NCBI RefSeq assembly: GCF_900155945.1
Contig: NZ_FTMN01000002.1
Location: 1-64,000, forward strand
DNA: 64,000 nt
Origin: Marinobacterium stanieri
Lineage (GTDB): Bacteria; Pseudomonadota; Gammaproteobacteria; Pseudomonadales; Balneatricaceae
Reading direction: 5' to 3'
A program made the position numbers and the translations under genes. This document shows, piece after piece, positions 19,523 to 59,048 of the stretch. The stretch's first letter is position 1. Each line of letters begins with the position of its first letter. The notes beneath the pieces were generated by a model that saw only the letters and a list, made by a program, of their open reading frames with translations, searched no databases and was not told the DNA's origin.

Positions 19523-20286
19523 TGCTCCGGTATTTCGTTGCAGACCTCCATCTCGACAGCAAACGCCCGGATATCATCCGGGCGTTTGTGCATTTCCTGA
19601 ATGAAAAAGCCGTTCACGGGAACGAACTGTACCTGTTGGGCGATATATTCGAAGCCTGGATAGGTGATGATGCCGCCCCGGACTTCTTGCAACCGGTGTA
19701 TGACGCGCTCACCTGCGCTTCACAATCAGGCGTAAAGATCTATTTTCAGCACGGCAATCGGGATTTTCTGGTTGGACAAGCTTTTATGGACCGCATTGGT
19801 GCAGAGCTACTGCCTGAATGCCAGGTTATCGAAAGCGCACACGGTAAAACCCTTCTCCTCCATGGCGACCAGCTTTGCCTGGATGATATCGACTACCAGG
19901 CTTTTCGAAAACAGGTCAGAAACCCGGAATGGCAAGCCGCCATTCTGAGCAAATCAGTGCCGGAGCGATTGGAATTGGCACGCCAGCTGCGACAGGCAAG
20001 CCAGGAGCAGACTGCGCAGAAGGCACAGGATATTACGGATGTCAGCCCTTCAGCCGTCAGCCAAACGCTTGAACAAGAAGCCGCGCCACTAATGATTCAC
20101 GGCCATACTCACCGCCCTGAAATTCACACCGAGCAATCAAAGACAGGCGGCGTGCGCATCGTCCTGGGTGACTGGGATACGCACGGCTGGTACCTCGAAC
20201 AAGATCAAAAAGGTAGCCGGCTCTATGCCTTTAAGCTGCCGGACGGGCCTGCAGAGCTTCAGGATTATCTAGCAGCGCCTGACTAG
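19522..20286 (+). CDS. lpxH: UDP-2,3-diacylglucosamine diphosphatase LpxH
   Basis: A 254-residue calcineurin-like phosphoesterase of lipid A biosynthesis, which releases UMP to give lipid X. Metal-binding motifs are clear: VADLHLD, LLGDIFE, HGNRDF, LHGDQLC and IHGHTHRP. It is translationally coupled to ppiB. Its last 56 bases overlap the 3' end of the converging miaE gene, and both frames look real there. Confidence 0.97.
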   Translation: MLRYFVADLHLDSKRPDIIRAFVHFLNEKAVHGNELYLLGDIFEAWIGDDAAPDFLQPVYDALTCASQSGVKIYFQHGNRDFLVGQAFMDRIGAELLPECQVIESAHGKTLLLHGDQLCLDDIDYQAFRKQVRNPEWQAAILSKSVPERLELARQLRQASQEQTAQKAQDITDVSPSAVSQTLEQEAAPLMIHGHTHRPEIHTEQSKTGGVRIVLGDWDTHGWYLEQDQKGSRLYAFKLPDGPAELQDYLAAPD

Positions 20287-20887
20287 GTTTGCCGCTATGG
20301 AAACGGAATTCATCGTCTTCTGTACGTATGAGTTCCGCTTCCAACTGGCGGAAATGCTCCACACGATCATCGATCGGCTCACCCGCATACTCGCGTGCCA
20401 ACGAGATATAATCCTGATAGTGACGCCCTTCCGACTTCAGCAATGACCGATAAAAACGGGCAAGCTCGTCATCCAGATCCGGCGCCAGCGCCGCAAAACG
20501 CTCACACGAGCGAGCTTCAATAAACCCGCCAATAATAAGCACATCAATCAAGCGCCCCGGCTCGGAAGTACGCACATCCTTGCGCAATCCTGCGGCGTAG
20601 CGTGCCGGGCTTAGATGGCCATACTCCAGCCCTCGCCCATCCATAATACCCAGAACCTGCTCAAAATGGATCAACTCTTCACGAGCAAGACGAGACATTT
20701 TGTTCAGCAGGTCAGAGCGGTCAACGTACCTGAACATAAGCGTCATCGCGGTAGACGCCGCCTTTTTTTCGCAGTGAGCATGATCCGTCAGCAACAAACC
20801 CAAGGCTTCAGGGCGCGCTGCCAGCTCCAACCACTCACGCGGTGTTTCACAGCCCAAAAAGGCTTTGATTTCGTCAAGTACATCCAT
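20231..20887 (-). CDS. miaE: tRNA 2-methylthio-N6-isopentenyladenosine hydroxylase MiaE
   Basis: A di-iron protein of the MiaE family, 218 residues from the ATG encoding MDVLDEIKAF. The oxygen-dependent enzyme hydroxylates ms2i6A37 in tRNA. Iron-ligand motifs of a ferritin-like four-helix bundle appear as EELIHFEQV and EGRHYQDY, with a further glutamate in GGFIEARSCERF. A frame continuing upstream to 21055 has no family resemblance and would cross a terminator, so I reject it. It converges on and overlaps lpxH. Confidence 0.9.
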   Translation of the reverse strand: MDVLDEIKAFLGCETPREWLELAARPEALGLLLTDHAHCEKKAASTAMTLMFRYVDRSDLLNKMSRLAREELIHFEQVLGIMDGRGLEYGHLSPARYAAGLRKDVRTSEPGRLIDVLIIGGFIEARSCERFAALAPDLDDELARFYRSLLKSEGRHYQDYISLAREYAGEPIDDRVEHFRQLEAELIRTEDDEFRFHSGKPSQALLDNPEALQARPAA

Positions 20888-21013
20888 CTGATTGCTCGCA
20901 TTTAACAGCATGAGGCCAGAACTTTTCAGTAAAGGCCTGCTAAAGAAAGGGTCATTAATAATGGGCGCAAATTCTACAAACTCATTTACGCGAATACCAG
21001 CACGGTACAGCCG

Positions 21014-21040
21014 ATAACAAAAGAGGCGCACTTGGCGCCC
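21014..21040 (-). terminator. terminator of the Roadblock-PAS operon
   Basis: The stem GGCGC / GCGCC with a 5-base loop is followed on the minus strand by TCTTTTGTT. It lies 35 bases after the PhnD-like gene and before miaE. Confidence 0.6.
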
Positions 21041-21073
21041 CTTCCGGTATAACAAACACTATGAACCTTGAAA

Positions 21074-21820
21074 TCAATCAACCAGTGTATCAATCAGGTC
21101 GATCATGAACTCGGTTTGCTCTTCTTCCATAACATCCCAGCCATCAAGCCCCATGCTTTTCAGCACGGGAATTCCTTTGGGATCATGCTCCATATTTACA
21201 AGCCGATCTGTCAATGTATCCATGTGCGCCTGCATGCGAGGCCCCGCTACCAGCGTATGATGGACAACACTGATCTGACTGCTGACCAGGGGCTTCATCT
21301 TGCTGCGCACAAGCTCAGAAAGCTCCTCAAAGCCAGCCTTGAGGAAGAACCCCGCATCGGCATCGCGATTCAGCAGTGCCTTGGCCACCAACACATAACT
21401 ATCCAGCTCTTTAAAGCTGACATTAGTGGCATCCAGGTCAGCTGACTCAAGCATGATCATGCCCATGATATGGACATCAGGATCAGCGGTCGTGGCAACT
21501 TTCAATCCCGGTGCCAGATCTTCTACACAGGTGACTTCATCATCAGCACGTACGGCAATAACCGTTTCGTCAGCGCGATTTCGGGGGCGCACCAGCACCT
21601 TGAACCCAAGTTCACGCACCAACATCGAGGCGTCATAGGGATTGGCGTAAATCAGATCAAGCTTGCCAGCACGAATATCTTCACGCTGCTGCTCGAAACT
21701 GTCATACAGCTCAAGATGAACGCCTTCGCCCAACTGACGCTGCAACCAGGTATTGAAAATAAACCAGCCCGACAAGTGCGTCGGTGGAAAATCAGGACTG
21801 ACTGACAAGTTCAATGCCAT
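21074..21820 (-). CDS. cytoplasmic PhnD-like substrate-binding protein
   Basis: A 248-residue protein resembling PhnD/phosphonate-type periplasmic binding proteins (PF12974-like). Characteristic stretches are DLIYANPYDASMLVRELGFK and the later GLKVATTADPDVHIMG. It has no signal peptide or lipobox, so it should stay in the cytoplasm, and no ABC permease or ATPase is nearby. It is the last gene of a six-gene operon, 12 bases after a PAS gene. It may bind a small ligand as a sensor. The ligand is unknown. Confidence 0.7.
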   Translation of the reverse strand: MALNLSVSPDFPPTHLSGWFIFNTWLQRQLGEGVHLELYDSFEQQREDIRAGKLDLIYANPYDASMLVRELGFKVLVRPRNRADETVIAVRADDEVTCVEDLAPGLKVATTADPDVHIMGMIMLESADLDATNVSFKELDSYVLVAKALLNRDADAGFFLKAGFEELSELVRSKMKPLVSSQISVVHHTLVAGPRMQAHMDTLTDRLVNMEHDPKGIPVLKSMGLDGWDVMEEEQTEFMIDLIDTLVD

Positions 21821-21832
21821 CGCAGAACCTCC

Positions 21833-22294
21833 CTATCTGAGCGTGGCGTACAAGGCTTCACTCTCATTAATCTTGCTGCGTGAGGGCTTACGCCGTACCG
21901 AGGTATAACCGACCAACTGACCATTACGAATATTGGGGATCACGGTCGCTTTTACCCAGTAGTAAGCACCATCCTTGCGCAGATTTTTGACATACCCTTG
22001 CCACTTTTTACCCTGAGCAACCGTATCCCAAAGATCCTTGAAAGCCACTGCAGGCATATCCGGGTGACGCAGAATATAGTGATTGGTTCCGATCAGCTCT
22101 TCACGCGTGTAGCCTGACATTTCAATGAAGGCACGATTCGCATGAGTGATAATACCCTGTGGGTCAGTTCGTGAAACGATTAACTTCCCGTCGGGGTATG
22201 GCACCTCCTGATCGACAATGCTTGCAAGCCGTTCGGTACCATCAAAATACTTGATCAGCACCTCACGAGCGGCAGCCGTATCTTGTTCGGACAT
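21833..22294 (-). CDS. single PAS-domain protein, Aer-like
   Basis: A 153-residue protein consisting almost wholly of one PAS domain. The segment with RHPDMPAVAFKDLW and the later WQGYVKNLRKDGAYYWV closely match the FAD-binding PAS of the aerotaxis receptor Aer, including RHPD and the conserved tryptophans. So it may bind FAD and sense redox or oxygen; that is inference. There is no transmembrane or signalling domain. I start at the ATG of MSEQDTAAAR. A short C-terminal tail follows the domain. It lies between the Roadblock and PhnD-like genes. Confidence 0.8.
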   Translation of the reverse strand: MSEQDTAAAREVLIKYFDGTERLASIVDQEVPYPDGKLIVSRTDPQGIITHANRAFIEMSGYTREELIGTNHYILRHPDMPAVAFKDLWDTVAQGKKWQGYVKNLRKDGAYYWVKATVIPNIRNGQLVGYTSVRRKPSRSKINESEALYATLR

Positions 22295-22357
22295 ACACAC
22301 TCCAAACCGAGTAAGCGGCGCCTGTATGGCAGGCGCACGCCAAACACAGTTAAACGC

Positions 22358-22720
22358 TTATAGAATCTTGCCAATCGCATCCGCAGCACGTTTTACGTCC
22401 AGGAAGATCAGACCCAAACGTGCATTGGTTTTGGCAACCACTGTAAGCACCGACTCAGGGTTGGCGTGCGTCATAAGAATGTAGCCGTCCTTGCCCTTCA
22501 CCAGAACCTGCTCCAGTTCACCACGTGCAAGCTCCTGGGATGTGCGCTCACCCAGCGACAACATCGCTGCACTCATCGCACCTACACGGTCTTCATCCAT
22601 GCCTGCCGGCAGCAGGGAGTCGATCACGAGACCATCCGTGGAAATAACCGCGGAGGCTTCGATTTCAGCCGATGTCCCGTTGAGATCGTTAAGAATTGAG
22701 GTCAACATTTCTGAGCGCAT
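22358..22720 (-). CDS. Roadblock/LC7 domain protein
   Basis: A 120-residue protein of the Roadblock/LC7 family. The hallmark is the central segment EASAVISTDGLVIDSLLP followed by a helix and the VLVKGKDGYILMTHANP strands. Bacterial members such as MglB regulate small Ras-like GTPases. No GTPase gene is in this operon or window. It is the fourth gene of a six-gene operon, with gaps of about 64 bases on each side. Confidence 0.85.
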   Translation of the reverse strand: MRSEMLTSILNDLNGTSAEIEASAVISTDGLVIDSLLPAGMDEDRVGAMSAAMLSLGERTSQELARGELEQVLVKGKDGYILMTHANPESVLTVVAKTNARLGLIFLDVKRAADAIGKIL

Positions 22721-22784
22721 GGTAGTCTCCTTTTAGGCCATTAGCGCTGGTTGTAAATCTGTATAAGGCAGCCAGTCTGCCTCA

Positions 22785-23417
22785 TCAGTAATCCAGGTAG
22801 CGTCGGATCAGAACCGACATCAAATCAACAAAAGGCTGCCTGTTCAGATGAGGCATCCCTTCCAGAATCAGCAGGAACTTCTGTTCACCTACGTGCAGGG
22901 TCCAGAAGCCCAACTCACTTTGACCAACTGCGTCGACCAAAGCCCAAGACGAGCCGTCAAACCCAAGGTGCCGCGCCAGCAAAGACTGATGACGCTCGTG
23001 CAGAGACACAAGGTCAGCAGCCATACCCGCTACAGCTTCAGCTTCGTCAGGATCAAAGCCGGACTGACCCAGGCAGAAGCCCTGGTCGTCGGCCAAAAGC
23101 ACCCGGCCATCCGCCAGGCGAGGAAGATACTCAGGCAACAACTGCTCAATCGTACCACTGGCAATCGGCTCAGGGTTCTCAGGCAGATCAACAAACCCGT
23201 GTTGCACCGCCTTGTCCAACAGCGCATGGGCATCAGCTTCAGGCAGGCCTGTAAGTTTCTGTAGCAGAGCACCCAGATAAGGAATATGGGTATCGGCACT
23301 CAGTAGCTGCAGCAACAACGCCCTGAGGGCATCATTACTGGTTGAAAGCGTGGCGTAATAGGCCCCGCTGGGGGTGACCTGAAAATACCGCGGGGTCTCA
23401 TTCTGATCTTGATTCAC
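22785..23417 (-). CDS. uncharacterised protein, possible second Roadblock-like domain
   Basis: A 210-residue soluble protein. The N-terminal half reads as a helical domain. The C-terminal part (LADDQGFCLGQSGFDPDEAE, then a helix and ALVDAVGQSELGFWTLHVGE strands) follows the order of a Roadblock/LC7 fold, with DDQGFCLG in place of the usual strand-turn. I do not recognise a named family. It lies between the Roadblock gene and the 421-residue gene, on the same transcript. Homodimeric or heterodimeric Roadblock pairing is possible but unproven. Confidence 0.6.
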   Translation of the reverse strand: MNQDQNETPRYFQVTPSGAYYATLSTSNDALRALLLQLLSADTHIPYLGALLQKLTGLPEADAHALLDKAVQHGFVDLPENPEPIASGTIEQLLPEYLPRLADGRVLLADDQGFCLGQSGFDPDEAEAVAGMAADLVSLHERHQSLLARHLGFDGSSWALVDAVGQSELGFWTLHVGEQKFLLILEGMPHLNRQPFVDLMSVLIRRYLDY

Positions 23418-23461
23418 GTTTTAACTCCGAAAGATCCGTGGGTGTGTTGCACACGTTTCGG

Positions 23462-24727
23462 TCACTGACAGTACAGGCCGACGGCGTCCGCTGCCACCAG
23501 GAACGAAAAGACAAAACGTTGAGGAATACTCAACATATCAGCCACATTACGAGCTGACAGCCTCTGACTCTGCCAAAGTTCGGCGATACTGCGCGCATGC
23601 GGTGTTTCCAACAAACGCTCAAAGTCAGGAATCTCAGCCAACAGCAGAGGTTCTTCAGCGGAGAGCGAATCGGACACGCGCCCACGGGCCGTAAACAAGG
23701 CCAGCTGCCACACCAGTTCATCAGCAGCCACCCGTTTGCCTTTGGGCAGTTCCTGGTCAGGCTCTTTATCCAGCAGCGACAATTCATCAAACCCGAAACG
23801 GGTTCGTGTCAGCTGCAGGAGTAGATCGGAGTCCATACCGACCAAAAAAGCCTTCTCTGCCGGCAGATAGAACAAGGCGCCGGGTACGCCTACAATCTGC
23901 TGGATGTTATTTGTTTCATTACCGGTTTTAACGGCACGCAGAATCCAGGGAAGCATCAAGCCATCGAGGCTGAAATAGACACGTCGACGCTCAGTGGCCT
24001 CGTCAAGGTTAACATCCGACAAGCTGCCACAGCACTGGAGGATCATTTCAGCCGACAGCGAGGGTACTTTTGGCGCCTCAGGCTCAGGGGCCACTTCAGG
24101 CTCAGGTGCAGGCGCAATCTTGCCTTCAGCTTCCAGCCTGGCCTGCTTCTCCTGAACCTGCTTTTGCGCTTCAAGAATCAGGCTATTGAGCTCATTACGA
24201 TGAACACTGAAACGACTGTTAAGACCGGCTTCTTCCCGATCTTTATGCTCACCCTGCCAGGACGAAGCGGCTTGAGTGCTACGCTGCTTTCGCGCCTGCC
24301 ACTCGGCAAAGGCTTCTTCACGCGCACGATCACGGTCATTCAGTGGTTTTGAAGGAGCGTCTTTGGCAATTAGCGGTTCAGCTTTTGCTTTCACACCTGA
24401 TTGAACGAGCTTTTTAAGATCGCTCAGCCCCTCCTGCAATGCCTTGATACTGAGAGGCCTTTCAATGTAGACCCCAGCATTGCGGGACGGCTTGTCGGCT
24501 TTACTGTCGACCACTGCGACCCAGGGCTTGCCGGCGTCATTCAACCAGTTCTGCAGGTGTCGCTCGGCCACCTCATCCTTGAGATTAATCATCAGCGCAT
24601 CGGCATCGCCACTGGAAACAAGGTTGTAACCAATAGCATTGCGACCACCGAAGAACACTTCCAGCATTGCCTGCTCTTTGGCAGCGAACCCGGAAGTTGT
24701 AATTGTTAGCTGTTCACTGACCGACAT
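23462..24727 (-). CDS. uncharacterised protein with pseudo-receiver and C-terminal helical domain
   Basis: A 421-residue soluble protein in three parts. Residues 1-105 follow a response-regulator pattern (DALMINLKDE, PWVAVVDSK, then YIERPLSIKALQEGLSDL), but the phospho-acceptor position looks like Asn in MINL, so it is probably a pseudo-receiver. Residues about 110-225 are charged, coiled-coil-like and end in a Pro-Glu linker (EPEVAPEPEAP). The C-terminal part ends in a helical or winged-helix-like region (SAEEPLLLAEIPDFERLLET, LSIPQRFVFSFLVAADAVGL). I know of no assigned function. It is the second gene of the Roadblock operon. Confidence 0.55.
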   Translation of the reverse strand: MSVSEQLTITTSGFAAKEQAMLEVFFGGRNAIGYNLVSSGDADALMINLKDEVAERHLQNWLNDAGKPWVAVVDSKADKPSRNAGVYIERPLSIKALQEGLSDLKKLVQSGVKAKAEPLIAKDAPSKPLNDRDRAREEAFAEWQARKQRSTQAASSWQGEHKDREEAGLNSRFSVHRNELNSLILEAQKQVQEKQARLEAEGKIAPAPEPEVAPEPEAPKVPSLSAEMILQCCGSLSDVNLDEATERRRVYFSLDGLMLPWILRAVKTGNETNNIQQIVGVPGALFYLPAEKAFLVGMDSDLLLQLTRTRFGFDELSLLDKEPDQELPKGKRVAADELVWQLALFTARGRVSDSLSAEEPLLLAEIPDFERLLETPHARSIAELWQSQRLSARNVADMLSIPQRFVFSFLVAADAVGLYCQ

Positions 24728-24748
24728 AACGATTATCTATTACCCCGC

Positions 24749-25222
24749 TCAGTGAAGTTGTTTCTGAATCGACAGTCTGGTGCAACGCCCGTTGCTCAGT
24801 ACCGAATAATCAAGGGGCAAACTGGACAAGAGATCCAACTCACGGGTATCGACAGCCTTGTTCATGGTGATGCGGTGCTCGGACAACAGCAGAGGTCCTG
24901 CTTGCTGGATAAGCCTGTTTACCAGGAATTGACCACGCCCTCTCAGCACCAGCAGGAGATCAATTAACGCCCCGGTCACACGCTCGCTATCAGCACACTG
25001 AATGGACAGGTACACACGGCGAATATGATTGCGAAGTACACGCGGGCGGGCAGCGACAAGCCTGGTCAGGTAACGCAACGCCACAGTAGGCTGAACACCG
25101 ACATAGATGAGTCGCTTGTCCGCCTGAAGGCTGAACATGATCTGCAACTTGCATAGTTCCAGATCTGAACGACTTGGGCGCTCATCCTGTGCCACCTCAG
25201 CCTGACCGACTGCTGGGTTCAT
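24749..25222 (-). CDS. uncharacterised 157-residue protein, first gene of the Roadblock operon
   Basis: A 157-residue protein I do not recognise. It has no signal peptide or clear membrane helix and alternates basic and hydrophobic segments (for example RYLTRLVAARPRVLRNHIRR). There is no P-loop, so it is not the missing GTPase. It begins at an ATG with an AGGAGG Shine-Dalgarno 7 bases upstream and follows a near-consensus promoter, which argues that it is really expressed. Only 21 bases separate it from the next gene. Confidence 0.65.
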   Translation of the reverse strand: MNPAVGQAEVAQDERPSRSDLELCKLQIMFSLQADKRLIYVGVQPTVALRYLTRLVAARPRVLRNHIRRVYLSIQCADSERVTGALIDLLLVLRGRGQFLVNRLIQQAGPLLLSEHRITMNKAVDTRELDLLSSLPLDYSVLSNGRCTRLSIQKQLH

Positions 25223-25258
25223 CTAGGTTACCTCCTACCTGAGATAAAGTGTTCAAAC

Positions 25259-25287
25259 GTTATACGTAGCTTCATACCTGATTTCAA
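25259..25287 (-). promoter_or_regulatory. promoter of the Roadblock operon
   Basis: On the minus strand TTGAAA (25282-25287), a 17-base spacer and TATAAC (25259-25264) form a near-consensus sigma-70 promoter. Transcription would start about 30 bases before the 157-residue gene. Confidence 0.7.
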
Positions 25288-57980: not shown

Positions 57981-59048
57981 ATGGTCGACTTGAACAAGTA
58001 CCTCCAAATGATGGCCGAAACCGAGGCCTCGGACCTTTTCTTCAGTAGCTACACCCCCATTCAAATCAAGAATCAGGGCATTATCAAATCAGCCGATGAC
58101 ACCGAGCTGATGCCCGACGATATCGACAAGCTGGCGCACAGCCTGATGAATGAACATCAGGCACAGCAATTCCGTGACGAAATGGAATTGAACTTCGCCT
58201 ATGAGATCAAAAGCATTGGCCGCTTCCGTGTCAACGTCTACCGACAACGTGGTGATGTAGCCATGGTAATCCGCATGATCCGCCACCAGATCCCATCGGT
58301 GGACTCACTGCGTCTCCCCAAGGTATTGGAAAACCTCATCATGTTACGCAGCGGCCTGGTTTTGATGGTCGGCGCCACCGGCTCGGGTAAATCAACCGCC
58401 CTGGCCTCCATGATCGAACACCGCAACCAGCGTACCGCCTGCCACATTCTTACCGTGGAAGATCCGATCGAGTTCCTGCACACAAACAAGCGCTCCCTGA
58501 TCAACCAGCGCGAGGTCGGCGTGGATACCCTGTCCTATGACAACGCCCTCAAGAACGCCCTGCGTGAAGCACCGGATGTAATCATGATAGGGGAACTGCG
58601 CGACAAGGACACCGTCGAGCACGCCATGCGCTACTCCGAAACCGGTCACCTTTGCCTTTCGACCCTGCACGCAACCAACGCAGTACAGGCAGTCGAGCAC
58701 CTGACCAATTTCTACCATGAGAACAGCCGCCACAAGATCAACGCTGATCTCTCACTAAACCTGCGTGCTATCGTCGCGTTGCGCCTTATCCATGATGTGG
58801 ATGGCAACTTCATCCCGGCCACAGAGGTATTGATCAATACCCCCTACATCAACAAGCTGATCGCCAGAGGCGAGTATTCCCGCATCCGTGAAGCAATTGA
58901 TCAAAGCAGCAGCACATCAGCCCATACCTTCGATACCTGCCTGCTCAACCTGTATGAAGCCGGTAAAATCACCATTGAAGAAGCACTGCAGAACGCTGAA
59001 TCACGAACCAACGTGGCATTGAAGCTGAAACTTATGGGCGGATTATGA
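57981..59048 (+). CDS. pilU: type IV pilus retraction ATPase PilU
   Basis: A 355-residue GspE/PilT-family ATPase. The Walker A is GATGSGKST (131-139), with GELRDKDT (Walker B-like) and the His box HLCLSTLHATNA. The pattern fits PilU, the accessory retraction motor, better than PilT. No pilT is next to it, unlike Pseudomonas. It complements fimV in this window. Confidence 0.92.
   Translation: MVDLNKYLQMMAETEASDLFFSSYTPIQIKNQGIIKSADDTELMPDDIDKLAHSLMNEHQAQQFRDEMELNFAYEIKSIGRFRVNVYRQRGDVAMVIRMIRHQIPSVDSLRLPKVLENLIMLRSGLVLMVGATGSGKSTALASMIEHRNQRTACHILTVEDPIEFLHTNKRSLINQREVGVDTLSYDNALKNALREAPDVIMIGELRDKDTVEHAMRYSETGHLCLSTLHATNAVQAVEHLTNFYHENSRHKINADLSLNLRAIVALRLIHDVDGNFIPATEVLINTPYINKLIARGEYSRIREAIDQSSSTSAHTFDTCLLNLYEAGKITIEEALQNAESRTNVALKLKLMGGL

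Follow-up and report, generated by a model that had tools for sequence, protein, structure and literature searches.

Organisation of the operon

We analysed a window of 64,000 nucleotides, positions 1 to 64,000 of contig NZ_FTMN01000002.1 of Marinobacterium stanieri, in which six open reading frames (ORFs), all on the minus strand, span 21074-25222. At the centre of this operon is a Roadblock/LC7 protein of the MglB type (gene 4), accompanied by an unrecognised helical protein (gene 1), a protein with a degenerate receiver-like part (gene 2), a possible second Roadblock-like protein (gene 3), a PAS protein (gene 5) and a PhnD-like binding protein (gene 6; Table 1). An earlier note on this DNA, made from its letters alone, had described the six genes as one transcript with a promoter, a Shine-Dalgarno sequence and a terminator, and all of these elements stand. 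TATAAC lies at an identical distance from the ATG in the window and in 6/6 Marinobacterium loci, and across these seven sequences the -35 element is TTGAAA in five and TTGAAT, a single change, in two. Sites of this quality (10/12) number four in the whole window with both strands counted; the promoter was missed in a standard scan because that scan requires T at the last place. AGGAGG precedes gene 1, and a hairpin with a T-run closes the operon.

For comparison, relatives with the Roadblock protein were gathered, one genome per species, and the best 80 of 336 were kept. The linkage of the genes in relatives, which the earlier note had proposed as a check, was borne out, as gene 3 adjoins the Roadblock gene in 80/80 loci. 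Moreover, gene 2 lies within 4.5 kb of the Roadblock gene in 78/80 loci, and gene 1 is found nearby in 57/80 by protein search, a number that ORF clustering raises to 69. Downstream of the Roadblock gene, PAS and PhnD occur together in 62 loci, PAS alone in one and neither in 17, giving PAS in 63/80 and PhnD in 62/80. The operon is old and conserved.

Table 1. Features of the operon and loci mentioned in the text; positions without a locus prefix are those of the window
Feature	Position or locus	Strand	Evidence or remark
Sigma-70-like promoter, TTGAAA-17-TATAAC	25259..25287	-	match 10/12
Gene 1, 157 aa (amino acids), all-helical, family unrecognised	24749..25222	-	no Pfam or NCBIfam match
Gene 2, 421 aa, N part receiver-like and degenerate, C part conserved, linker between them variable	23462..24727	-	alignment of 39
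Gene 2/gene 3 junction, site of the GTPase gene in other families	23418..23461	-	locus comparison
Gene 3, 210 aa, N-terminal part and probable Roadblock domain	22785..23417	-	weak profile matches
Gene 4, 120 aa, Roadblock/LC7 (MglB-type)	22358..22720	-	Pfam E 5.7e-17
Gene 5, PAS, Aer type	21833..22300	-	Pfam E 3.8e-18
Gene 6, 248 aa, leaderless PhnD-like binding protein	21074..21820	-	Pfam PF12974 E 4.9e-38
Intrinsic terminator, hairpin and T-run	~21018..21047	-	fold -18.6 kcal/mol, z -3.5
Gene downstream of the operon	20231-21055	-	
PilT-family gene	57990-59009		above curated cut-off
GTPase-like ORF (G461)	L195:3903-4862		family f112
Decayed GTPase remnant (G592)	L196:4485-4906		family f112
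Detached Roadblock-PAS-PhnD triad (G098)	L176:2825-4484		
CheW-like and two receiver-domain genes (G090)	L170:1556-3755		
GTPase-Roadblock-like fusions	L150-L160, L180		~320-340 aa
FimV/HubP-like followers	L083, L085, L088-L090, L092-L094, L097, L098, L100, L106		Thiotrichales

A Group 3 MglA operon without its GTPase

ORF clustering placed a P-loop protein of ~180 aa between genes 2 and 3 in relatives. By protein search, this GTPase gene stands directly upstream of gene 3 in 29/29 loci of other families (in Thiothrix, Cocleimonas, Leucothrix, Methylococcaceae, Sphaerotilus, Leptothrix and others) and in 0/51 loci of the window's family; the absence of a GTPase that the earlier note had remarked on in the window thus holds at the junction of genes 2 and 3 in 51/51 family loci. 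In an alignment of 15 of the relatives' GTPases, GTPGQ is invariant at G3, G4 lacks Lys and G5 reads DxR, where x is A in 90% or more. Group 3 MglA proteins have the motifs GTPGQ, a G4 lacking Lys and DAR (Wuichet and Sogaard-Andersen 2014, PMC4316618), and their GTPase/Roadblock systems belong to the beta- and gamma-proteobacteria. Group 3 operons comprise a protein with a receiver-like N part, a variable linker and a winged-helix C part, together with MglA and one or two MglB (PMC4316618). This layout fits genes 2, 3 and 4, and thus the window operon is of the Group 3 type with the GTPase missing. The locus comparisons show both the ancestry of the operon from a Group 3 MglA system and the absence of its GTPase.

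Loss of the GTPase, as read from gene content, is not unique to the window's family and recurs in others. On the operon tree (69 rows, with 24 rows of the window's family thinned and L195 counted as GTPase-bearing), presence or absence changes five times, four of them forced by starred branches, on long branches and with some placements unsure. The grouping of relatives for one tree left out two rows. Within family f36, one locus (L162) has gene 2 and the GTPase, and two (L174, L175) are without both. A wider draw found Roadblock in 41 of 369 genomes of the class. Among the 40 other class genomes with Roadblock, a GTPase lies within ~2 kb in 32, is degenerate in one (G461) and is lacking in four; three more, with Roadblock at contig ends, were left unjudged. 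The degenerate GTPase-like ORF lacks GTPGQ and is fused to an extra N-terminal part. Operons without a GTPase were found in G541, G496 and G711, and in G592 a decayed GTPase remnant lies between an intact gene 2 and the Roadblock gene. None of these four genomes gave a GTPase match at 1e-25.

GTPases elsewhere in the genome and family

A GTPase profile gave 0 matches at E<=10 in the window's own genome, where Arf-like matches occur only in ORFs of at least 265 aa and in none smaller. The same search gave a match in 41/116 genomes of the window's family, of which 62 carry the operon Roadblock. The suggestion in the earlier note that the output GTPase lies elsewhere is therefore possible for sister genera (41/62 operon-bearing genomes) and is not supported for the window's own genome. 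By listed coordinates, none of the family's GTPases is near the Roadblock gene. At the loci that were read, most of the unlinked GTPases share an ORF with a Roadblock-like segment, and a small Roadblock-like ORF comes next; the one case tested matched Pfam Roadblock with E 0.0067, below the cut-off. On the GTPase tree, a single clade (97) unites 13 fused and 2/3 lone family GTPases; it neighbours the main operon clade (support 89), outside which the operon GTPases of L162 and L173 fall. No GTPase was found in 21/62 operon-bearing family genomes. Seven of these are among the eight genomes from the window's genus, the remaining one of which (G005) carries a more distant GTPase beside its own partner gene. 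From this distribution, the GTPase may have moved out of the operon, acquired its own Roadblock domain by fusion and then disappeared from some genera. The fusions listed in Table 1 come from several genera of the family, in which genomes hold one to four GTPases.

The Roadblock protein and its operon partners

The Roadblock/LC7 assignment of gene 4 is secure, with a PDB match to 7f8m (E 3.9e-29), and the protein is the sole Roadblock above the Pfam cut-off in the whole genome. Its ratio of nonsynonymous to synonymous substitution (dN/dS) is 0.005-0.016 in six comparisons within Marinobacterium, the lowest among the six genes, on near-saturated synonymous sites (proportion of synonymous differences, pS, 0.51-0.72). 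As dN/dS lies far below 1 for all six genes, the codon comparisons show the operon to be constrained, and gene 4 to be under strong purifying selection. Moreover, Asp29-Gly30 of gene 4 is invariant across 29 GTPase-bearing and 50 GTPase-less sequences. This Asp-Gly pair is conserved in Group 2-5 MglB (PMC4316618), and its invariance in the GTPase-less sequences as well implies that it is not retained for GTPase contact alone.

Gene 2 has no Pfam match, and an alignment of 39 shows conserved ends. The pseudo-receiver that the earlier note had seen here is upheld as far as residues go, with the putative acceptor Asp replaced by Asn and Lys by Arg, and the receiver fold itself remains putative. 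The acceptor Asp is kept in 10/11 GTPase-bearing rows versus 8/28 GTPase-less rows; in this alignment the receiver-like part is drifted in rows without a GTPase. A basic C-terminal tail is found in gene 2 of 30/30 GTPase-bearing relatives, and the window's gene 2 lacks it. Gene 3, put forward in the same note as a possible second Roadblock-like protein, matches CvnB5 (3leq) with E 0.0017 and Pfam Roadblock below threshold (E 0.006, 16.7 bits vs a cut-off of 23); against this, hhalign gave a probability of 0.4% when it was compared with the Roadblock profile of gene 4, and its standing as a second Roadblock protein is doubtful on these profile scores. Gene 1 was rightly called unrecognised. Its AlphaFold model has a pLDDT (predicted local distance difference test) of 86, and structure comparison yielded weak TPR-like matches and nothing else.

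The Aer-like character of gene 5 is confirmed by its best PDB match, the E. coli Aer PAS 8dik (E 1.3e-36, 124 residues without gaps); its start may be ATG 22294 rather than GTG 22300. The flavin adenine dinucleotide (FAD) contacts of E. coli Aer PAS were taken from PMC9668731, and their equivalents H53, R57, W70, N85 and R115 are all present in gene 5. Among 77 distinct PAS rows, limited to those with 50% or more identity to gene 5 of the window, they are kept in 74, 77, 77, 77 and 75, respectively. We infer from these residues that gene 5 binds FAD. Gene 6 opens at the mature domain, as the second position of the PF12974 profile aligns at residue 6, in agreement with the leaderless PhnD-like protein of the earlier note; reading of the sequence, without a predictor, likewise revealed no leader peptide. 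No ABC permease or ATPase is among the six operon genes by Pfam. In G098 a detached second Roadblock-PAS-PhnD triad occurs without genes 1-3, and the main operon of that genome (L177) is without PAS and PhnD. Gene order across the loci thus shows linkage of PAS and PhnD with Roadblock.

Neighbouring genes and possible output

In 12 Thiotrichales loci a FimV/HubP-like gene follows the operon, directly after PhnD in five Thiothrix ones, and a bactofilin gene is nearby in 11/12 of them. The FimV/HubP family model, run on one of the 12 genes, gave E 3e-18. In G090, a CheW-like gene and two receiver-domain genes occupy the place of PAS and PhnD. The FimV/HubP, bactofilin and CheW neighbours hint at a role in polar or surface organisation.

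The window also holds a PilT-family gene, one of four in the genome. The same-strand gene downstream of the operon, putatively MiaE-like, is kept there in part of the relatives.

Interpretation

Overall, we favour, with a probability of roughly 0.55, the reading that this is a Group 3-derived operon that has lost its GTPase and whose Roadblock protein serves as a GTPase-independent scaffold. The GTPase gene between genes 2 and 3 would have been lost before the window's family diversified, and a related GTPase would survive elsewhere in sister genera and not detectably in the window's genome. We infer that the scaffold would be the gene 4 homodimer, probably joined by the Roadblock-like portion of gene 3, with a flavin redox signal entering via gene 5 and a cytosolic small ligand via gene 6. 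Gene 2 would then receive the signal and most likely relay it to machinery at the pole or surface (FimV/HubP, type IV pili), or else to transcription. A bolder proposal, which we hold tentatively and at somewhat less than even odds, is that the Roadblock-PAS-PhnD triad is an autonomous sensor hub, gated by redox state and ligand, for which the GTPase is dispensable, so that it was lost repeatedly while Roadblock stayed near-frozen.

Several observations weigh against a GTPase-independent scaffold or its proposed output. The folds of genes 2 and 3 are only putative at the level of sequence, and the low dN/dS of gene 4 carries the saturation given above. FimV neighbours are confined to Thiotrichales, with none near the window. 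PilT is found in 60/62 operon-bearing versus 37/54 operon-free family genomes, and 15 PilT-less genomes are of one genus; PilT presence or absence lends no support to a link with type IV pili. Furthermore, a GTPase may be too divergent for the profile or may lie in the ~1% of the genome absent from the assembly. Another point is co-occurrence: an unlinked related GTPase is present in 41/62 operon-bearing versus 0/54 operon-free family genomes (Fisher 9e-16, uncorrected for kinship), and within genus g15 in 10/13 versus 0/4. This fits action in trans, by a GTPase that is unlinked and fused to Roadblock in sister genera, that would still be the output and of which a divergent form would have escaped detection here. 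All 41 GTPase-bearing family genomes have the operon Roadblock, and the clade of fused and lone GTPases stands beside the operon clade; however, the empty search of the window's own genome and the 21 operon-bearing genomes without a GTPase, most of the window's genus included, make this explanation unlikely.

Gain of the GTPase by other lineages, rather than its loss in the window's, draws on the trees being unrooted and their deepest placements lying on long branches. We consider it improbable, as the insertion point is identical across several families and beta-proteobacteria, GTPase-less lineages are scattered among GTPase-bearing ones, and G592 retains a decayed remnant. It is harder still to credit that the operon is a functionless, decaying remnant: the GTPase is gone and the receiver residues of gene 2 have drifted, but the genes are intact, the promoter is conserved and dN/dS is well below 1 throughout.

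The accepted role of Roadblock proteins in prokaryotes is to regulate GTPases; a strongly conserved one kept without a GTPase suggests that such regulators can work without their switch. The loci form a natural series in which the GTPase lies within the operon, has moved and fused, has decayed or is gone, with Roadblock under extreme constraint. What stands out is that the GTPase was lost repeatedly while a highly constrained Roadblock and the sensor partners stayed. Whether Roadblock proteins can function independently of a GTPase thus becomes directly testable in marine bacteria that are culturable and not pathogenic, with two likely sensory inputs named. According to PMC4316618, orphan MglB proteins were at that time all uncharacterised.

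Comparison with known systems

The earlier note could not match this combination to a described system; that view must be revised, since genes 2-4 match the partners of Group 3 MglA (PMC4316618). Shared with that system are a variable-linker, putatively receiver-like protein without a Pfam match, one MglB and doubtfully a second (gene 3), and the Asp-Gly pair of MglB (D29-G30 in gene 4), and relatives of the window operon hold a mid-operon GTPase with Group 3 motifs. The difference is that a GTPase coupled to MglB was not found in the window's operon or genome. Moreover, the window's additional gene 1, PAS and PhnD go unmentioned in the consulted sections of PMC4316618. Gene 5 resembles the Aer PAS (PMC9668731) in its conserved FAD-contact residues and natively carries Gly and Val at 2/3 sites of Aer-PAS-stabilising substitutions, but it is a stand-alone protein of ~155 aa without membrane anchor or signalling domain. 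PhnD is the periplasmic protein of an ABC importer, from which gene 6 differs in having neither a leader nor linked ABC genes.

The Myxococcus MglA/MglB/MglC/RomR polarity module likewise sets Roadblock and receiver-type proteins around a small GTPase; as far as its partly consulted description goes, it differs in a Group 1 GTPase essential to output and in having no PAS or PhnD. The orphan MglB-3 of Snodgrassella, which affects gut colonisation and for which effects on type IV pili have been proposed (PMC11112851), is also a Roadblock protein away from a GTPase, but there an mglA operon lies elsewhere in the genome, whereas none was detected in the window's genome. Actinobacterial conservons (Group 2, CvnA-D) are likewise conserved signalling operons of several genes that include one for a Roadblock protein, and some have lost mglA, leaving an orphan MglB (PMC4316618). 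They differ in that the window's six proteins give no histidine kinase or CvnC-type Pfam match, and in that GTPase loss of the window's type is fixed across one family and recurs in others.

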